From Thiomonas intermedia (GTDB taxonomy: Bacteria; Pseudomonadota; Gammaproteobacteria; Burkholderiales; Burkholderiaceae_C): 64,000 nt of DNA. Made by a program: the position numbers and the translations under genes. The DNA lies in the NCBI GenBank assembly GCA_020722545.1, contig DYKQ01000002.1, positions 1 through 64,000 of the forward strand, read 5' to 3'. Numbering within the stretch: position 1 is the stretch's first letter; every line of letters begins with the position of its first letter. The notes under the pieces were generated by a model. It ran no database searches. It saw nothing but the letters and a program-made list of their open reading frames with translations, and was not told the DNA's origin. Of the stretch, positions 48,625 through 58,386 are shown piece after piece.

Positions 48625-49611
48625 TTACGGCTTCCAGCCGCGCAGCGCCTGCATCGCCGCGTCATAGCCGATCTGGATCGATTCTTCGGCGCGACCGAAT
48701 TCGAGAAAGCGGATATCGCCCAGCGGCGGGCGGATGAGCAAATCGGGCGGCTCGATGCGCAGACGGCTTTCGGTGATGTGCATTTCCATCACATTCACCG
48801 AAGCCAGCAAGACCTCGAACACATTGGGCAGCGGCTCCTCGCGGTCGGCCCAGCGCTCGAACTGATCCTTGGCCGGGGCGCTCGGAGCTTGCAGGCGCTG
48901 CCTGAGATCGGCCATCACCCGCCGATAGTCGGCCGCCCAGCGGCCTGCCAGTTCTTCCACCGGAGTTTCGCTGCGCCGGGGTTTGGGCCGCGCCCGTCGC
49001 TTGAGCCGACTGTCCACCACGCCATGATTGAGATCGACCGCAATCACCTGGTCCGCCCCCATGGCGCGCACCACGCTGACCGGCACCGGGTTGCTCAAGC
49101 CCCCGTCCACCAACACCCGCCCATTCACGCGCACCGGGGTGAACACGCCCGGCACCGCAATGCTGGCGCGCACCGCTTCGATCACATCGCCCGAGCGCAG
49201 CACCACCTCGGCGCCGCTGTGCAGATCGGTGGCAATCGCGGCAAAAGGAATGGACAGCGCCTCGATCTGCGTCGCCGGCAGATGCTCACGCACCAGTTCG
49301 GTGACCTTGGCGCCGTCGATCAGCCCCGAGCGAGGAAACACCACGTCGAAAAACGACAGGGTCTTGCGCCAGTCGAAGGTCTTGAACGTGGCCTCCAGTC
49401 CGTCGGTGCGCCCTGCTGCGGCAATGGCGCCAACCAGCGCGCCGATGCTGCACCCGGCGATGAAATCGATCCGCACTCCGGCGTCGGCCAAGGCCCGCAG
49501 CACGCCCAGGTGCGCCATGCCGCGCGCGGCGCCGCCGCCCAGCGCCAGGCCGAGCCGGGGTCTTGGCGTTGCGGTTGAAGAGGTGGAGAGAGGCGCTGCT
49601 TGCATGACCAA
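48625..49611 (-). CDS. Patatin-like phospholipase (RssA-like)
   Basis: LALGGGAARGMAHLGVLRAL; GCSIGALVGA; DGGLSNPVPV. Confidence 0.92.
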   Translation of the reverse strand: MVMQAAPLSTSSTATPRPRLGLALGGGAARGMAHLGVLRALADAGVRIDFIAGCSIGALVGAIAAAGRTDGLEATFKTFDWRKTLSFFDVVFPRSGLIDGAKVTELVREHLPATQIEALSIPFAAIATDLHSGAEVVLRSGDVIEAVRASIAVPGVFTPVRVNGRVLVDGGLSNPVPVSVVRAMGADQVIAVDLNHGVVDSRLKRRARPKPRRSETPVEELAGRWAADYRRVMADLRQRLQAPSAPAKDQFERWADREEPLPNVFEVLLASVNVMEMHITESRLRIEPPDLLIRPPLGDIRFLEFGRAEESIQIGYDAAMQALRGWKP

Positions 49612-49650
49612 AGGATAAGCCTGCCCCGTGCTATGTGTGCGCTAAGACGG

Positions 49651-49709
49651 GCTCCCTAAAGTTCTTCTCACGCCAAGTCGGCGTTTGTTCAACTTCTTCT
49701 TTAGGGAGC
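49651..49709 (+). promoter_or_regulatory. 5'-UTR stem sequestering the Shine-Dalgarno of the PepSY gene
   Basis: GCTCCCTAAAG (49651-49661) is perfectly complementary to CTTTAGGGAGC (49699-49709), which contains AGGGAG 7 nt before ATG 49716. Confidence 0.55.
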
Positions 49710-49715
49710 TTCATC

Positions 49716-50051
49716 ATGAAAATTCGCCAATCCATCCTCATCGCCACGCTCGCACTCGCTTCGGCCGCCGCCGGGGTCAGCGCATTCGCATCAAGCGCTT
49801 CGGGCAACGACGCCCGCATCATCCCCAACGCCAAGATCAGCCTGAGCCAGGCTGTCATCGCGGCCGAACAGCATGTGGGCGGCACGGCCTCCAAGGCCGA
49901 AGTCGAGCAGCACGCGGGCAAGGCGGTGTATGACGTGGAAGTGGTCAAAGGCCCGCAGGTGTTCGACGTGAAGATCAGCCCGGATCAAGGCACGGTCATC
50001 GCCTCGACCGAAGACCGCAACGATCACGACGACCACGATCAGCAGGACTGA
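49716..50051 (+). CDS. PepSY-domain periplasmic protein
   Basis: Signal peptide MKIRQSILIATLALASAAAGVSAFA; PNAKISLSQAVIAAEQHVGGTASKAEVEQHAGKAVYDVEVV. Confidence 0.88.
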   Translation: MKIRQSILIATLALASAAAGVSAFASSASGNDARIIPNAKISLSQAVIAAEQHVGGTASKAEVEQHAGKAVYDVEVVKGPQVFDVKISPDQGTVIASTEDRNDHDDHDQQD

Positions 50052-50140: not shown

Positions 50141-50758
50141 ATGCTGCATTTCCCCGCTTTTTGGAACGCCCTCAATCTGGGGCTCTACACCCATTGGGCC
50201 GCCCACGGCACGGCGTCACAAGCCAGCATCGACGTAGCGCTGTTCTTTGCCGAATACGCCATCTACGCCGCGCCCCTGCTGTTGATCTGGGGCTGGTTGC
50301 GCCACCCGGACGCGCTGCGCCCGCCGCTGCTGCAAGCCGCAGTGGCGGCCCTCGTGGCGCTAGGCATCAATCAGCTCATCGGGCTGGCGGTGTTCGAGCC
50401 GCGCCCCTTCGCCATCGGCCTCGGCCCTGCGCTGCTGGCGCATGCGCCCGACAGCGGCTTTCCCAGCGATCACCTCACCGTAATCGCTTCGGTCGCGGCG
50501 AGCCTGCTCCTCACGCCGACATGGCGCCGGGCCGGTCTGCTGCTGGCGCTGCTGGGTCTGCCTGTGGCCTGGGCGCGGGTGTATCTCGGCGTGCATTGGC
50601 CGCTGGACATGGCGGGCGCCGCGCTGGTGGGATTGATGGCCGCGCTCGTCGTCCATCCGGCGCGGCATCGTCTGCTGGAGCCCGCCATGCCCATACTCAC
50701 TGGCCTCTATCGCAAACTGTTCGCACCGGCCATTCGTCAAGGTTGGGTTTTACGATGA
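50141..50758 (+). CDS. PAP2-family phosphatase (undecaprenyl-diphosphatase BcrC-like)
   Basis: SGFPSDHLTVIASVA and RVYLGVHWPLDMAGA PAP2 motifs. Confidence 0.88.
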   Translation: MLHFPAFWNALNLGLYTHWAAHGTASQASIDVALFFAEYAIYAAPLLLIWGWLRHPDALRPPLLQAAVAALVALGINQLIGLAVFEPRPFAIGLGPALLAHAPDSGFPSDHLTVIASVAASLLLTPTWRRAGLLLALLGLPVAWARVYLGVHWPLDMAGAALVGLMAALVVHPARHRLLEPAMPILTGLYRKLFAPAIRQGWVLR

Positions 50759-52182
50759 AACAAATTGTCACCCCACAGCCCACTGCCATGACGGTTCCCC
50801 ATTTATCCCGCAGCATTCTGCTCGCCGCTCTGCTTCTAGGCGGTTGCGCCAGCTATCACCCCGAGCCGCTGCCGACTTCCGCCGATCTGGCCGCATCGAC
50901 GAACCGTCTGGATGTGGCGCGCGGCAAGATCGCGCTGCCCGCACTGGCGCATTACAACTTCGATACCGCCAAGCCGCTGGACGCCACCGGGCTGGCCATC
51001 CTCGCCGTGCTCAACAACCCGCAGCTCAAGGCCGAGCGCGCAAGGCTGGGCGTGGCCCGCGCGCAAGCCTTCGACGCCGGGCTGCTGCCCGATCCGCAAC
51101 TCGGCCTGTCGCAAGACTTCCCCGGAAACAGCGCGGGAGCAACGACTTCGGCGTACAACCTCGGGCTGTCTTACGACATTGCCGCGCTCATCACCCACCA
51201 CGCCGCGCAAAGCGCCGCACAGCACGCCGCAACCCAGGTCAACCTGCAAGTGCTGTGGGCCGAATGGCAGACCGTGGCGCAAGCCCGCCTGCTCTACACC
51301 CAGATCACCGGCAACGCTGCACGGCTGAAACTGCTGGAGCAGGAGCGCGCCTTGTTCGCGCAGCGCCTGCAGCGCAGCCAGACCGCGCTGGCGCAGGGCA
51401 ATGTCACCCGGCTCGACGTGGACGCCCAGCTCGTCCCGCTGCAAGCCCTCACCCAGACCATTCAGCAGATCGAACGCCAGCAGCTCGGCCTGCAGTCTCA
51501 GCTCCATGCCCTGCTCGGGCTGCAGGCCGATGTACCGCTGCCACTGGCCGCGCCCTCTGAACAAGCCGCGCCCGCCGCCGCGCAGGTGGCCGCAGCGCTC
51601 AAGCAACTGCCGCGCATCCGCCCCGATCTGATGGCGCTGCAGGCTGGCTATGCCGCGCAGGAGCAGAAAGTCTGGCAGGCCGTGCTCGGGCAGTTTCCGG
51701 CGTTCAATCTGGGCTTCACCCGCGCGCGCGACACCGCCGGAGTGAACACCGTGGGCTTTGGCGTGAGCATCAGCCTGCCGCTGTTCAACCGCAATCAGGG
51801 CGTGATTGCTACGCAGCGCGCCACTCGTGCGCAACTGCTGGCCGACTATCAGGCCCGGCTCGATCAGGCTGATGCCGATGTACGGCAGGCGCAGGCCGAC
51901 ATCGCGCTCCTGCAGCAGCAGCGTCAGACTCTGCTGAAGGCCCTGCCCGCGCTGGAATCGGCAGATGCCGCCGCACAACAGGCGCTGCAGCAGGGCGGCA
52001 TGAGCCTGCTGGAATTCATCAACCAGCGCACCGCCCTGCTCGACCAGCGCTTGGCGCTGCAAGCCAACGCGCAACAGCGCGCCGAGCAAATTCTGGCCTT
52101 GCAACTACTCACCGGTCTTGGCCCCTACCGTCAGACCGCCGCCCTAGTTTCCCCGTCCAAATCCAACGCCGCACCGCTATGA
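50755..52182 (+). CDS. TolC-family outer membrane lipoprotein
   Basis: Lipobox LLLGGCASY; OEP repeats. Confidence 0.88.
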   Translation: MKQIVTPQPTAMTVPHLSRSILLAALLLGGCASYHPEPLPTSADLAASTNRLDVARGKIALPALAHYNFDTAKPLDATGLAILAVLNNPQLKAERARLGVARAQAFDAGLLPDPQLGLSQDFPGNSAGATTSAYNLGLSYDIAALITHHAAQSAAQHAATQVNLQVLWAEWQTVAQARLLYTQITGNAARLKLLEQERALFAQRLQRSQTALAQGNVTRLDVDAQLVPLQALTQTIQQIERQQLGLQSQLHALLGLQADVPLPLAAPSEQAAPAAAQVAAALKQLPRIRPDLMALQAGYAAQEQKVWQAVLGQFPAFNLGFTRARDTAGVNTVGFGVSISLPLFNRNQGVIATQRATRAQLLADYQARLDQADADVRQAQADIALLQQQRQTLLKALPALESADAAAQQALQQGGMSLLEFINQRTALLDQRLALQANAQQRAEQILALQLLTGLGPYRQTAALVSPSKSNAAPL

Positions 52183-53249
52183 CCCTGCCCACTCGTGCCC
52201 GCATCGCTCTTCTCGCCGCGCTGAGTCTGCCCTCGCTTTTCCTGACCCTTGGCCGCCTGCCGAGTGCGTTCGCTGCAGACAGCCCCATCTCCGCACAGGT
52301 ACAGACCGCGCCGCTGCAACGCGGAGAACTGCTGCATACCCTGCGCGCCTATGCCGTGGTGCAGGTGCCTGCCAGCCAGACTCAGGCCATCACCTTTCAG
52401 CATGCCATGCAGGTGCAAACCGTGGACGTGCATGTCGGCCAGGCCGTGCGCAAGGGCGCGGTGCTGGCCACGCTGCACAGCGATGCCAGCACCGCGCTGG
52501 CCTACAGCCAGGCGCAGACCGCCGTTTCTTTTGCGCAGGGCGAGTTGGGCCGCCTGACCGCGCTCAAGGCGCAACAACTCGCGACGCAGGCGCAGGTCGA
52601 TGCCGCGCGCAAGGCCCTGACCGACGCGCAGGCGCAACTGCACAGCCTGCAGCAACAAGGCGCGGGACAGGCGGCAACGCGGGTGCTGGCGCCGCAAGAC
52701 GGCATCGTGCTGGCGGTGAACGCCGCGCCGGGTGATCTGCTGGCCGCAGGCAGCCCGTTGCTGCAACTCGGGCGCAGCGGCAGCCTGCAAGCGCTGGCCG
52801 GCGTGCCTCCGGAAGACGCGCCGCGCCTGCAGCCCGGGCAACCCGTGCGGCTGACCTCGGTGTTCGACCCGGCGCAGCACTGGCAGGGCACCATCCGCAG
52901 CGTTGGAGCGGCCATCAACCCCAAGACCCAGCGCCTGGACGTGCAGATCGCCCTGCCTGCTCAGGCCGGTCTTCCTCCGGCCGGAGCCAGCGTGCAGGCC
53001 GACATGGTGCTCGGCCGCTGGCGCGGCTGGGTCGTGCCGCGCGACGCCGTGCTGCAGGACGAGCGCGGCGCCTTCGTGTTTCAGGACGACCACGGCAAGG
53101 CGCTACGCATCCCCGTGCAGATCGCCATTGAAAGCGGCCTGCAAACCGGCATCACCGGCGCCTTGAACCCGGCCATGCCGCTGGTCGTCGCCGGCAACTA
53201 TGAACTTCGCCCCGGCATGGCGCTGCGTGTGACAGGAGCCCAGCGATGA
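52179..53249 (+). CDS. RND efflux periplasmic adaptor
   Basis: HlyD-like; overlaps neighbours by 4 bp. Confidence 0.88.
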   Translation: MTLPTRARIALLAALSLPSLFLTLGRLPSAFAADSPISAQVQTAPLQRGELLHTLRAYAVVQVPASQTQAITFQHAMQVQTVDVHVGQAVRKGAVLATLHSDASTALAYSQAQTAVSFAQGELGRLTALKAQQLATQAQVDAARKALTDAQAQLHSLQQQGAGQAATRVLAPQDGIVLAVNAAPGDLLAAGSPLLQLGRSGSLQALAGVPPEDAPRLQPGQPVRLTSVFDPAQHWQGTIRSVGAAINPKTQRLDVQIALPAQAGLPPAGASVQADMVLGRWRGWVVPRDAVLQDERGAFVFQDDHGKALRIPVQIAIESGLQTGITGALNPAMPLVVAGNYELRPGMALRVTGAQR

Positions 53250-56200
53250 GCGGCGCCTCGGTCTGGCTGCAACGCCATCGACGCTCCATCCTGTTTCTGC
53301 TCGCGCTGCTGGCAGTCGGCGGGGTGTTTGCCGCGTTCAAGCTGCCGGTGGGACTGTTTCCCAATGTGGACTTCCCCCGCGTGGTGGTCAGCGCCGATGC
53401 GGGCGACCGCCCCGCCAGCCAGATGATGTTGCAAGTCACGCAGCCGCTGGAGCAGGCGGTACGCCGCGTGCCCGGCGTGGTGGATGTGAGATCCACCACC
53501 AGCCGCGGCACCGCCGATATTTCGGTGAGCTTCAACTGGGGCACGCCCATGGCGCTGGCCGCGGTGCAGGTCAACGAAGCGGTCACGCAGATGCTGCCGC
53601 AACTGCCGCCCGGCACCCAGGTGTCGAGCAAGCGCATGGACCCCACGGTCGATCCGGTCATCGCCTACAGTCTGACCTCCAAAACGCTCACCCCGACTCA
53701 ACTCTACGACCTGGCCGAATTCCAGTTGCGGCCGCTGCTCTCCAGCATCGGCGGGGTGGCGCGGGTGCAGATTCAGGGGGGTGCGCAGGAGGAATATCAC
53801 GTCACTCTCGATCCGCTGAAACTTCAGGCGCTGGGTCTGGCGCTGCAGGACGTGAGCAATGCGGTCAGCGCCGCCAACGGCGTGCAGGCCGTGGGCCATC
53901 TGCAAGACCGCTACAAGCTCCTGCTCGCCCTGGCCGACTCGCGCCTGCATGATGCCGCGCAAATCGGTGACATTGTGCTGCGGGCCGGGCCGGACGGCGT
54001 CATTCGGCTCAAAGACGTGGCGCGCATCTCGCGCAGCACCGTGCCGCAATGGGTGCGCATCACCGCGAACGGGCAAGACGCCGTGCTGCTCAACATCTAC
54101 CAGCAGCCGGGCGGCAACACCGTGCAGATCGCCCGCCATGTGCGCGAACTGCTCGCCAAAACCCCGCTGCCGCCCGGCGCGCACCTAGCCAGTTGGTATG
54201 ACCAGAGCACCCTGGTGGTGGACAGCGCCGCCAGCGTGCGCGACGCCATTCTGATCGGCGTGGCGCTGGCCGGGCTGGTGCTGCTGCTGTTTTTGCGCAG
54301 CCTGAAAATCACCCTCATCGCCATGATCACCGTGCCCGCCGTGCTGGCCGCCACCGTGGTGCTGCTCTACGCCCTGGGTATGAGTTTCAACATCATGACC
54401 CTGGGCGGCATGGCGGCCGCTGTGGGCCTGGTGATCGACGACGCCATCGTGATGAGCGAGCACATCGTGCGGCGATTGAGTGAAGCGCGCCATCGCGGCG
54501 AAGCGCAAGCGCGGCACAGCGGCATCCTGCATGCGGCGATGGAGTATTTGCGGCCGCTGGCCGGGTCGAGTGCGTCCACCGTGGTCATCTTCCTGCCGCT
54601 GGCCTTCCTCTCCGGCGTCACCGGCGCTTTTTTCAAGGCGCTGTCGCTGACCATGGCCGCCGCCCTCGTCATCTCCTTTTTCGTCGCCTGGCTGGCCGTG
54701 CCGCTGCTGGCCGACAAGCTGCTCTCGCCCAAGGACATCGCGCGCGAAGCGCAGCGTGAAAACGGCCGCTGGCTCTCCGCAGTGCAACGCGGCTATGCGC
54801 GGGTGCTGGGCGCTAGCCTGCGCCGCCCGTGGCTGGCCGCGCTGGGACTGGCGCCGCTGCTGCTCGCGGGCTGGCTGGCTTACGGGCAAGTGGGCAGCGG
54901 CTTCATGCCGCATATGGACGAAGGCGGTTTTATTCTCGACTACCGCACCCCGCCCGGCACCTCGCTGACCGAGACCGACCGCATCCTCGCGCAAGTGGAG
55001 CAGATTCTGCGCACCACGCCCGAGGTGCAAACCTGGTCGCGCCGCACCGGGGCGCAGCTCGGCGGCGGCGTGACCGAAGCCAACGAGGGCGACTTTTTCG
55101 TGCGGTTGAAGCCCCCGCCCCGCAAGTCGATCGATGTGGTGATGGAGGAGGTGCGCCAGCGCATCGAAACCCAGGTTCCCGGCGTGAAAATCGAAATGGC
55201 GCAGTTGATGGAAGACCTGATCGGCGACCTCACCGCCGTGCCGCAGCCCGTGGAGATCAAAATTTTCGACGACAACCCGAAGCAGCTCGCCCAGCTTGCG
55301 CACCGCACCGCGGCGGCCATCGGCAAGATTGCCGGCATCGTCGATGTGCGCAGCGGCATCAAGCCCGCGGGCGACGCGCTCGACATCCATATCGACCCCA
55401 CCCGCGCGGCACTCGAAGGCGTCGATCCGCAGCAGGTGCAGCAACAGTTGCAAACCCTGATCGGCGGCAGCGTGGTGACGCAAATCCAGCAAGGCCCGAA
55501 GATGGTCGGCGTGCGGCTGTGGACCCCGCTGGCGCTGCGCCAAACCACTGACGACATCGCCCGCCTGCCGCTGCGCGCGCCCGACGGCCATGTGTTCACC
55601 CTGGGGCGCATCGCCAGAATCAAGGTGCTCACCGGCCAACCAGAAATCAACCGCGAGAACTTCAAGACAATGGCCGCGGTCACCGCGCGCATCAGCGGTC
55701 GAGACCTGGGTTCGACCATTGCCGACGTCAAAAAAATCATCGACGCGCCCGGCTACTTTCCGCCCGGCGTCTATGCCCAACTCGGCGGGCTGTACAAGCA
55801 GCAGCAAATCGCGTTTCAGGGCCTGATCAGCGTGCTCGGCGCGGCGGTGCTGCTGGTGTTTTTGCTGCTGCTTTTTTTGTACGAGCGCTTCAAGGTGGCG
55901 ATCAGCATCCTGGCCATGCCGCTGCTCGCGCTGCCCGCCGTGTTCATTGGCCTGTGGGCGGCAGGCATCGAGCTCAACATCTCGGCCATGATGGGCATGA
56001 CCATGATCGTGGGCATCGTCACCGAGGTCGCGATTTTCTACTTCAGCGAAGTGCAGTCCTTGCTGCACGAGCACCCTGAGCAGGGCCTGGATGCCGCACT
56101 GGTGTCCGCCGGGCAGAACCGCATGCGCCCAATCGCCATGACCACGCTGGCGGCCATGCTGACGCTTGCGCCGCTGGCCCTCGCGCTGGGGCAAGGCTCG

Positions 56201-56368
56201 GCCATGCAACAGCCGCTGGCCGTGGCCATCATCGCGGGGCTGGCGGTACAGATGCCGCTGGTGCTGCTGGTCATGCCCGTGCTGTTCAAGCTGATGCGAG
56301 GCAAGCTGGATGACGCCGAGGCCGACGACAATCTTCCGCTGTCTGCAGTCTCCCCCCCTACCGAGTGA
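53246..56368 (+). CDS. RND (CzcA/AcrB-like) inner membrane pump
   Basis: 1040 aa; GLVIDDAIVMSEHIVRR; SGFMPHMDEGGFILDY. Confidence 0.92.
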   Translation: MSGASVWLQRHRRSILFLLALLAVGGVFAAFKLPVGLFPNVDFPRVVVSADAGDRPASQMMLQVTQPLEQAVRRVPGVVDVRSTTSRGTADISVSFNWGTPMALAAVQVNEAVTQMLPQLPPGTQVSSKRMDPTVDPVIAYSLTSKTLTPTQLYDLAEFQLRPLLSSIGGVARVQIQGGAQEEYHVTLDPLKLQALGLALQDVSNAVSAANGVQAVGHLQDRYKLLLALADSRLHDAAQIGDIVLRAGPDGVIRLKDVARISRSTVPQWVRITANGQDAVLLNIYQQPGGNTVQIARHVRELLAKTPLPPGAHLASWYDQSTLVVDSAASVRDAILIGVALAGLVLLLFLRSLKITLIAMITVPAVLAATVVLLYALGMSFNIMTLGGMAAAVGLVIDDAIVMSEHIVRRLSEARHRGEAQARHSGILHAAMEYLRPLAGSSASTVVIFLPLAFLSGVTGAFFKALSLTMAAALVISFFVAWLAVPLLADKLLSPKDIAREAQRENGRWLSAVQRGYARVLGASLRRPWLAALGLAPLLLAGWLAYGQVGSGFMPHMDEGGFILDYRTPPGTSLTETDRILAQVEQILRTTPEVQTWSRRTGAQLGGGVTEANEGDFFVRLKPPPRKSIDVVMEEVRQRIETQVPGVKIEMAQLMEDLIGDLTAVPQPVEIKIFDDNPKQLAQLAHRTAAAIGKIAGIVDVRSGIKPAGDALDIHIDPTRAALEGVDPQQVQQQLQTLIGGSVVTQIQQGPKMVGVRLWTPLALRQTTDDIARLPLRAPDGHVFTLGRIARIKVLTGQPEINRENFKTMAAVTARISGRDLGSTIADVKKIIDAPGYFPPGVYAQLGGLYKQQQIAFQGLISVLGAAVLLVFLLLLFLYERFKVAISILAMPLLALPAVFIGLWAAGIELNISAMMGMTMIVGIVTEVAIFYFSEVQSLLHEHPEQGLDAALVSAGQNRMRPIAMTTLAAMLTLAPLALALGQGSAMQQPLAVAIIAGLAVQMPLVLLVMPVLFKLMRGKLDDAEADDNLPLSAVSPPTE

Positions 56369-56371
56369 ACC

Positions 56372-57049
56372 ATGCGCATTCTCCTGGTTGAAGACGATCA
56401 CATGCTGGGCGCCGCCACGCGCGAAGCGCTGCGCGACGCCACCCACGCGGTGGACTGGGTGCTCGACGGCGCGTCGGCGCTGAGCGCGGCGCAAGGCGGC
56501 GAATACGAGCTGATGCTGCTCGATCTTGGCCTGCCCAAGCGCGATGGCCTTTCGGTGCTGCAGGCGCTGCGGCAGTCAGGCAGCAACCTGCCCATCCTCA
56601 TCCTCACTGCGCGCGACGCGCTCGAAGACCGGGTGCGCGGCCTCGACCTGGGCGCAGACGACTATCTGGTCAAACCCTTCGAGAGCGCCGAGCTGCTGGC
56701 GCGCATCCGCGCGGTGGCGCGGCGCCAGGGCGGACAGGCGCAGCCAGTGCTGTCCAACGGTGTGCTCGAACTTGACCCCGTTTCCCGCGAGGTGCGGTTT
56801 CAGGGGCAGACGCAGCGTCTGACCGCGCGCGAATACGCCCTGCTCCACGCGCTATTGCTGCGCCCCGGCGCCATTCTGTCGCGCAGCGAACTTGAAGACC
56901 GCATCTACGGCTGGAACGAAGAAGTGGAAAGCAACGCGGTGGAGTTTCTCATTCACAGCCTGCGCAAAAAACTCGCACCCGAAGTCATCAAGAACGTGCG
57001 CGGCGTGGGCTGGCTGGCGCCGCGCGGCGATACGGACAAGACGCCATGA
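56372..57049 (+). CDS. OmpR-family response regulator
   Basis: MRILLVEDDHMLG, LLDLGLPKRDG, winged helix. Confidence 0.94.
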   Translation: MRILLVEDDHMLGAATREALRDATHAVDWVLDGASALSAAQGGEYELMLLDLGLPKRDGLSVLQALRQSGSNLPILILTARDALEDRVRGLDLGADDYLVKPFESAELLARIRAVARRQGGQAQPVLSNGVLELDPVSREVRFQGQTQRLTAREYALLHALLLRPGAILSRSELEDRIYGWNEEVESNAVEFLIHSLRKKLAPEVIKNVRGVGWLAPRGDTDKTP

Positions 57050-58386
57050 ATCCCCTGGCCGCACTGCGCCATTGGGGCGCGCAATCGCTGCTGCGTCGGC
57101 TATGGCTGTGGATGACAGTGAGTGTGGTTGTCGTCGGTCTGGGCACGGCGGCGCTGTCCTACTTTTTCGGCTATCAGGAAGCCAACGAACTACAGGACGC
57201 GCAACTGCGCCAAATCGCTAGCCTGGTGCACCGCTGGGGCCATCTTCCCGACAGCGCACTCAACCCCGCCGGGGCCGATGTCGACAAAGACGCCCGCATC
57301 GTGGTGCAGCGGCTGGGAGCGCCCGTGGGCGCGCACGGGCTGCAGCTTGCGGCCGATCTGAGCGACGGCATGCATGTGGTGCAAAGCGGCGACCATGCCT
57401 GGCGCGTGTTCGTGCAGCAGGGCGACAAAGGCCGCATCGCCGTGGCGCAGCGCACCGATGTGCGCACCGACGCCGCCATTGACAGCGCGCAGCGCACCCT
57501 ATTTCCGCTGCTCGCGCTCATTCCGCTGCTGGCCCTGCTGTCAGCTTGGGTGGTGCGGCGGGCGCTGCGACCGCTGCGGCAAATGGCGCAGGGCGTGGAC
57601 GCGCGCAGCGAAGCCGATCTGCAGCCCCTGCCGCAAACCGATGTGCCGCAGGAAATCCTGCCCTTCGTGCACTCCATCAACCGCCTGCTGCAACGTTTGA
57701 ATGCCTCGATGGAACAGCAGCGCCGCTTCGTCGCCGACGCCGCGCACGAACTGCGCACGCCCATCGCCGTGCTCAGCATGCAGGTGGACAATCTCAAGCC
57801 GCTGCAGCTCGAACCGCAGGCGCGGCAGCGCATCGGCGCGCTGCAAGACGGCCTGCGCCGCGCCCGCACGGTGGTGGAACAGTTGCTCAGCCTCGCCCGA
57901 TCGCAGGGCGAGCAGACGACGCAGCGGCAGACGCTCGACCCGGCCAGCGTGATGCGCGAAGTGATCACCGATCTGCTGCCGCTGGCCGAGAGCCGCGGCA
58001 TCGACCTGGGCATCGACCGCGCCGAGAAATTAGAGATCGACACCGACCCCGCCCAGCTCTACACCCTGCTGCGCAACGCGGTGGACAACGCCCTGCGCTA
58101 CACCCCGGAAGGCGGACGGGTCGATCTGCGGGTGCGGGCCGAGGGCGAACGCGCGGTCATCGAAGTGCAGGACAGCGGCCCCGGCATTGCGCCCGAGCAG
58201 TTGCAGCGGGTGTTCGACCCCTTTGTGCGCCTGCCAGGCGCGCAAAGCGAAGGCAGCGGGCTGGGCCTGTCCATCATCCGCCAGATCGCGCTGCGCCTCG
58301 GCGGCGAGGTGACGCTGCGCAACGCCGCAGAAGGCGGGCTGATCCTGCGCTACAGCCAACGTCTCACTTCGGCCAGATCCGGCTGA
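57046..58386 (+). CDS. Sensor histidine kinase (QseC-like)
   Basis: FVADAAHELRTPIAVLSMQ H-box; NALRYTPEGG; GSGLGLSIIRQIA. Confidence 0.94.
   Translation: MNPLAALRHWGAQSLLRRLWLWMTVSVVVVGLGTAALSYFFGYQEANELQDAQLRQIASLVHRWGHLPDSALNPAGADVDKDARIVVQRLGAPVGAHGLQLAADLSDGMHVVQSGDHAWRVFVQQGDKGRIAVAQRTDVRTDAAIDSAQRTLFPLLALIPLLALLSAWVVRRALRPLRQMAQGVDARSEADLQPLPQTDVPQEILPFVHSINRLLQRLNASMEQQRRFVADAAHELRTPIAVLSMQVDNLKPLQLEPQARQRIGALQDGLRRARTVVEQLLSLARSQGEQTTQRQTLDPASVMREVITDLLPLAESRGIDLGIDRAEKLEIDTDPAQLYTLLRNAVDNALRYTPEGGRVDLRVRAEGERAVIEVQDSGPGIAPEQLQRVFDPFVRLPGAQSEGSGLGLSIIRQIALRLGGEVTLRNAAEGGLILRYSQRLTSARSG

Follow-up and report, generated by a model that had tools for sequence, protein, structure and literature searches.

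A predicted two-component promoter of Thiomonas intermedia whose −10 region may double as a Shine-Dalgarno-masking arm before a PepSY gene

In the leader of a PepSY-domain gene of Thiomonas intermedia, a sequence overlapping the predicted −10 element pairs with the segment that holds the Shine-Dalgarno (SD) sequence. We give about even chances to the reading that this is a compound promoter-leader, in which the −10 region doubles as an anti-SD arm and masks the SD only in RNA that enters from upstream. The long stem, on our best reading, would then be a lock against leaky expression, not a temperature or ligand switch. Judged from aligned homologues, the deeply conserved part of the leader is a small hairpin at the predicted start of the message, not the long stem.

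Results

Leader and locus

The leader lies in a 64,000-nucleotide stretch of contig DYKQ01000002.1 (hereafter the window), and the window features from the operator to the kinase gene are on the forward strand. A preliminary description of this DNA had proposed a perfect 11-bp pairing, an AGGGAG SD buried 7 nt before the ATG and a second hairpin within a 37-nt loop, and each was found as described. The left arm GCTCCCTAAAG (49651–49661) and the right arm CTTTAGGGAGC (49699–49709) are exact complements; the SD (49703–49708) lies within the right arm, 7 nt 5′ of the ATG at 49716; and ACGCC-AAGTC-GGCGT (49670–49684) forms a small hairpin inside the loop. With a computed folding energy of −34.7 kcal/mol, the leader is more stable than its dinucleotide shuffles (z = −2.33). 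When the upstream segment was randomised under an order-1 Markov model, a Watson-Crick helix of 11 bp involving the SD segment arose in 4 of 3,000 cases. Such a stem is thus improbable by chance at a gene chosen in advance, though not exceptional for 64 kb searched by eye. In silico, the probability that the SD is unpaired falls from ~0.2–0.27 without the left arm to ~0.02 or less with it. Rfam gave no match at the gathering score in the window and, for six loci with such leaders, nothing relevant up to E = 5, so a known RNA family was set aside.

The PepSY gene (49716–50051) encodes a periplasmic protein of 111 amino acids (Pfam PF03413, 7.7e-10) and, as previously proposed, stands at the head of an efflux and two-component locus whose genes all run in one direction. 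It is followed by genes for a PAP2-family phosphatase (50141–50758; PF01569, 1.5e-15), an outer-membrane efflux protein (50755–52182, start inferred; PF02321, 1.2e-22), an RND periplasmic adaptor (52179–53249; TIGR01730, 1.5e-46), an RND efflux permease (53246–56368; NF033617 and TIGR00914, each under its curated cut-off), an OmpR-family response regulator of PmrA/QseB-like type (56372–57049) and a QseC-like sensor histidine kinase (57046–58386; QseC model at 229 bits, below cut-off). PmrA/BasR and QseB, which use direct-repeat sites of similar spacing, provide the closest family models and solved structures for the encoded regulator: the best NCBIfam models are PmrA (220.9 bits) and QseB (201.2 bits), and the best solved relative is BasR/PmrA. 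We call it neither PmrA nor QseB because both scores fall below the curated equivalog cut-offs. On the other side of the leader, an RssA-like patatin phospholipase gene (48625–49611) is divergent, which leaves ~104 bp for both promoters. The same genome encodes a distant second PepSY protein (contig C59:111–404).

A predicted response-regulator promoter

Homologues were collected at the level of genus, family, order and class, as well as in named genome contigs, and 125 distinct leaders were read; an alignment of 72 leaders, made from sequence, was used for the −10 and hairpin counts. Nearly all close homologues have one common layout, in which a direct repeat is followed by a −10 element and then by the small hairpin. 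The repeat, CTnAn-N6-CTAA, occurs in 107 of the tabulated leaders (variants CTcAg, CTAAn or CTATG, then N6-CTAAg). In the window it reads CTATG (49631–49635), six nucleotides, then CTAAG (49642–49646), and conservation together with the geometry of the BqsR site marks it as the predicted response-regulator operator (49631–49646), with an 11-bp period.

The predicted −10 element, TAAAGT (49657–49662), begins 15 nt after the start of the second half-site and lies within the left arm, which overlaps both the spacer and the −10. TAnnnT occurs at this distance in 94 of the 107 leaders and at the expected place in 20 of 26 held-out leaders. Its T, A and T are conserved in 69, 72 and 71 of the 72 aligned leaders, respectively, and the neighbouring bases are variable. 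Gammaproteobacterial homologues have TAGTAT, TAATAT or TAATCT at this position, and COG4705-type membrane proteins, an unrelated family whose leaders share the repeat, mostly have nAnnnT. CTAAG was rejected as the −10, the T/A/T signature being in the TAnnnT 15 nt later. Transcription is predicted to start at A49670, the first base of the small hairpin and 7 nt after the −10, and here the aligned leaders have a pyrimidine (68/72) followed by a purine (71/72).

An 11-bp-period direct repeat that overlaps the −35 region, with a −10 at fixed distance, is the arrangement of an OmpR-family class II promoter of the PmrA/BqsR/PhoB-like kind, here a predicted two-component promoter of the metal type, and the geometry fits OmpR-family activators standing in for the −35 element. 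The predicted operator and −10 are thus well supported by sequence conservation. Because TAAAGT is inside the left arm, the predicted start at ~49670 falls downstream of that arm, and the regulated mRNA should lack it. The preliminary description had held that a start inside or downstream of the left arm would tell against its switch, and the start predicted here is so placed.

The small hairpin at the predicted 5′ end

In 91 of 112 rows the small hairpin starts 5–8 nt downstream of the −10, at the predicted +1. Across the 72 aligned leaders, five of its six pairs show changes on both sides. Such two-sided changes total 71 cells; shuffles average 26, and none of 500 reached 71. Slid versions of the hairpin fail. 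At pair 45/52, for example, AU is found 32 times, GC 28 times and CG 8 times. Most leaders have the loop AAUNYC, a conserved hexaloop. This pattern is well supported as the covariation of a genuine RNA structure. The likeliest role is 5′-end protection, the bringing together of the outer arms, or both. Stem-loops of the ompA type at the 5′ terminus stabilise mRNA, and the present hairpin resembles them in beginning at the predicted first nucleotide; it differs in that both its AAUNYC loop and the pairs of its inner stem remain conserved from genus to genus, beyond what end protection needs.

Conservation of the outer stem and co-evolution with the Shine-Dalgarno sequence

The 11-bp stem was rejected as a conserved feature, since the closest relatives (L003 and L004) lack the TTT at 49700–49702 and form only 7 bp; pairwise alignment with these two identifies the TTT as an insertion by which a 7-bp stem became one of 11 bp, and the full 11 bp is confined to this genome. 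The inserted bases complement AAA in the left arm; the change resembles a templated quasi-palindrome mutation and is possibly neutral. Among the other seven Thiomonas homologues the outer stem is mismatched in three, so that 3/8 are broken, and AGGGAG is invariant across all eight, which leaves the 11-bp stem itself without compensatory change in the genus. The covariation across leaders that the preliminary description named as a check was thus seen for the small hairpin and, in relatives, between arm and SD, but not for the 11-bp stem within Thiomonas.

Across leaders, the stretch that runs from the −10 to the hairpin pairs better with its own SD segment (14.25) than with swapped partners of the same class (12.68, s.d. 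0.21). When swaps were controlled for relatedness by using disjoint nearest-relative pairs, the own pairing was better in 24 and worse in 5 of 29 (Wilcoxon P ~5e-5); the same swap was flat for the spacer segment and at most weak for the operator segment. Scanning along the upstream DNA gave co-evolution z values of 6.3–7.8 over the −10 and discriminator, 4.5 just before and no more than 2.7 beyond that. These figures are strong but approximate, because class boundaries, window sizes and the scan were picked after seeing the data and the leaders are related. Held-out or remote leaders (n = 26) gave a marginal result (P = 0.03), and Thiomonas alone (class T) gave no swap signal. Thiomonas leaders have a shifted arm register (spacer plus −10), a few nucleotides upstream of the arm in relatives. 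In class B (Gallionella type) pairing in a fixed register is weak (65% versus 54–58% for partners slid 3′-wards), and support in this class therefore comes from the swap tests.

In silico, leaders of classes A and B have a median probability of an unpaired SD of 0.03 when the arm is included and 0.34–0.41 when folded from the predicted +1, and for the eight Thiomonas leaders it is 0.02–0.05 with the arm versus 0.30 without it. The sequence comparisons support an SD-masking stem around the small hairpin as a genuine recurrent feature, with an arm that co-evolves with the SD in relatives. In two remote homologues, L156 and L159, the −10 is complementary to the SD or to the bases just before it (TAGAGT/ACTCTA; TAATCTC/GAGATTG).

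A second Thiomonas locus and related leaders

A second Thiomonas leader has its operator 27 nt behind the rpoN stop codon and precedes a COG4705-like membrane protein gene (L206 1501–1594, which is contig C50:46837–46930 of the same genome as the window; also L202–L205, L208 and L214). It has the same operator, a −10 reading CAGAAT and the hairpin, together with a different pair of arms, 6–11 bp long, that spans the −10. In the best case, GAATGCCGTTG pairs with CAACGGCATTC, with up to 10–11 uninterrupted bp adjoining the SD. Orthologues of this gene in other genera mostly have short leaders, with no stem of such length.

COG4705-type genes of Burkholderiales (L213–L236) carry CTATG-N6-CTAAGTC-N8-CAGACT promoters, with nAnnnT at the −10, and often adjoin a PepSY gene; a gene of this type is likely a core member of the predicted regulon. 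Another Thiomonas PepSY gene (L201 (G010), ~1501–1609) has ACTCCTT...AAGGAGT arms around two hairpins, with CTAAG upstream. In L010, a sub-threshold Rfam match to the sX11 sRNA (1794–1881; 31.4 bits, E 0.019) lies downstream of the start of the PepSY gene. Three sequences titled as Bordetella parapertussis, Rhizobium and Deltaproteobacteria metagenome-assembled genomes (L033, L039 and L027) have Gallionella-type leaders, which may reflect wrong binning or labelling, or lateral gene transfer.

Discussion

Proposed promoter-dependent occlusion of the ribosome-binding site

Sequence that precedes +1 is absent from the regulated mRNA and cannot act there, yet here it co-evolves with the SD, and the simplest account is that it acts in another RNA. 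In the mechanism that we favour, a response regulator of the PmrA/BqsR type (probably that encoded 6.6 kb downstream) would bind CTATG-N6-CTAAG and activate the −10 TAAAGT, giving an mRNA from ~A49670; conservation makes this step well supported. The regulated mRNA would open with the small hairpin, a structure that is itself well supported, and its comparatively free SD would allow translation. Read-through or spurious RNA from upstream would carry the arm, form the long stem and hide the SD, as the co-evolution in relatives suggests. PepSY would thereby be translated only as its own promoter is used. The arm in this genome sits a few nucleotides further upstream, and the 3-nt insertion has brought the stem to 11 bp.

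Several observations fit this mechanism: the co-evolving arm lies at the −10 and discriminator, upstream of the predicted start; the modelled SD is masked with the arm and exposed without it; the fixed distance from operator to −10 recurs in the independent COG4705-type family; and the locus next to rpoN repeats the design with arms of another sequence. Others weigh against it. Outer-stem strength showed no association with the strand of the upstream gene, which removes a co-directional upstream gene as the cause of stem strength, and a simple read-through model might predict such a link; the gene upstream of the leader in the window runs divergently. The broken outer stems and missing swap signal within Thiomonas count against it too, as does the marginal held-out test, and quasi-palindrome template switching could also yield matched arms without selection.

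Alternative explanations

We see perhaps one chance in a handful that the small hairpin alone is functional, as RppH or RNase E protection or as a protein target, with the long stem a by-product formed when a templated TTT perfected an imperfect inverted repeat. The hairpin is the strongest signal in the data and begins at the predicted +1 with zero unpaired 5′ bases; the extra 4 bp in the window come from that one insertion, complementary to the left arm; and the three broken Thiomonas stems are as this account would have them. It leaves unexplained, however, the family-wide co-evolution at the −10 and discriminator and the second Thiomonas locus with its different long arms.

Somewhat less probable, and in our judgement unlikely, is that transcription starts upstream of 49651 and that the long stem acts in the regulated mRNA as a translational switch sensing temperature, a metal or other ligand, or a protein. 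Gating of translation by the SD stem, the central proposal of the preliminary description, survives in that the SD-masking arm co-evolves with the SD in relatives, and a conserved inner hairpin with an AAUNYC loop is expected of a recognised element; it falters in that the left arm holds the predicted −10. Such a switch calls for a −10 5′ of ~49645, where the operator sits, but TAnnnT at its fixed distance of 15 nt from the operator is near invariant. RNA thermometers such as ROSE and fourU likewise pair the SD in a leader stem, but this leader matches no Rfam family, its perfect stem is very stable and its arm is predicted to lie outside the regulated mRNA. A thermometer was rejected on that arm position and on modelled stability, the SD staying closed up to 70 °C (probability unpaired ≤0.024 at 70 °C). 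A ligand switch in the regulated mRNA is not supported either, given the conserved predicted −10 in the left arm and the lack of an Rfam match.

It is very improbable that the inverted repeats act as DNA, through a cruciform that removes the −10 or as the site of a second dimeric regulator: the arms do overlap the −10 itself, and at pair 41/56, close to the base of the hairpin, G.T is no more common than A.C (4 versus 9), but the arms are ~37 nt apart with an asymmetric interior, and the inner half-site sequences vary among relatives with pairing kept, unlike a conserved protein site.

Comparison with known systems

Occlusion of the ribosome-binding site in read-through or upstream-initiated transcripts is known from transposase genes of the IS10/IS50 type and from phage T4 gene e. 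As we propose here, an arm present only in outside transcripts pairs with the SD, and the proper promoter gives a translatable mRNA. The PepSY case, which is predicted, differs in that the arm is the −10 and discriminator of a chromosomal promoter under two-component control, with a conserved hairpin at +1. Literature searches for the PepSY leader and for read-through occlusion of the ribosome-binding site found nothing direct.

BqsRS/CarRS of Pseudomonas aeruginosa and DbfQRS of Vibrio cholerae (PMC4682146, PMC12714742) show a similar association of a small PepSY gene with an OmpR-family response regulator and sensor kinase, and the same 11-bp operator period, the BqsR site being TTAAG-N6-TTAAG (PMC4682146); autoactivation of dbfQRS has been suggested (PMC4682146, PMC12714742). 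The half-sites here are CTATG and CTAAG instead, and the locus includes PAP2 and an RND efflux set. The regulator and kinase genes are 5–6 genes from the PepSY gene, slightly beyond the four-gene PepSY-TCS criterion of PMC12714742. Neither account, in the portions available, describes a leader hairpin or SD masking (PMC4682146, PMC12714742). A Pfam search of control genomes for the Pseudomonas bqsP leader yielded none.

Implications

Tentatively, and with less confidence than for the window itself, these leaders may belong to a class of two-component promoters, undescribed but widespread in Beta- and Gammaproteobacteria, whose −10 and discriminator form the anti-SD arm, which would make translation depend on the promoter of origin, and whose mRNA begins with a conserved AAUNYC-loop hairpin read by some factor. 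For PepSY and two-component genes, the layout predicts operator, −10 and transcription start in a sharp and testable way, and the conserved 5′ hairpin, through its hexaloop, is a compact target in the search for a binding partner or an effect on decay. If the favoured reading is true, a stress and efflux regulon would gain a cheap second lock, by which RNA from the wrong promoter is untranslatable, and the case would show how promoter DNA and ribosome-site RNA can constrain one another.
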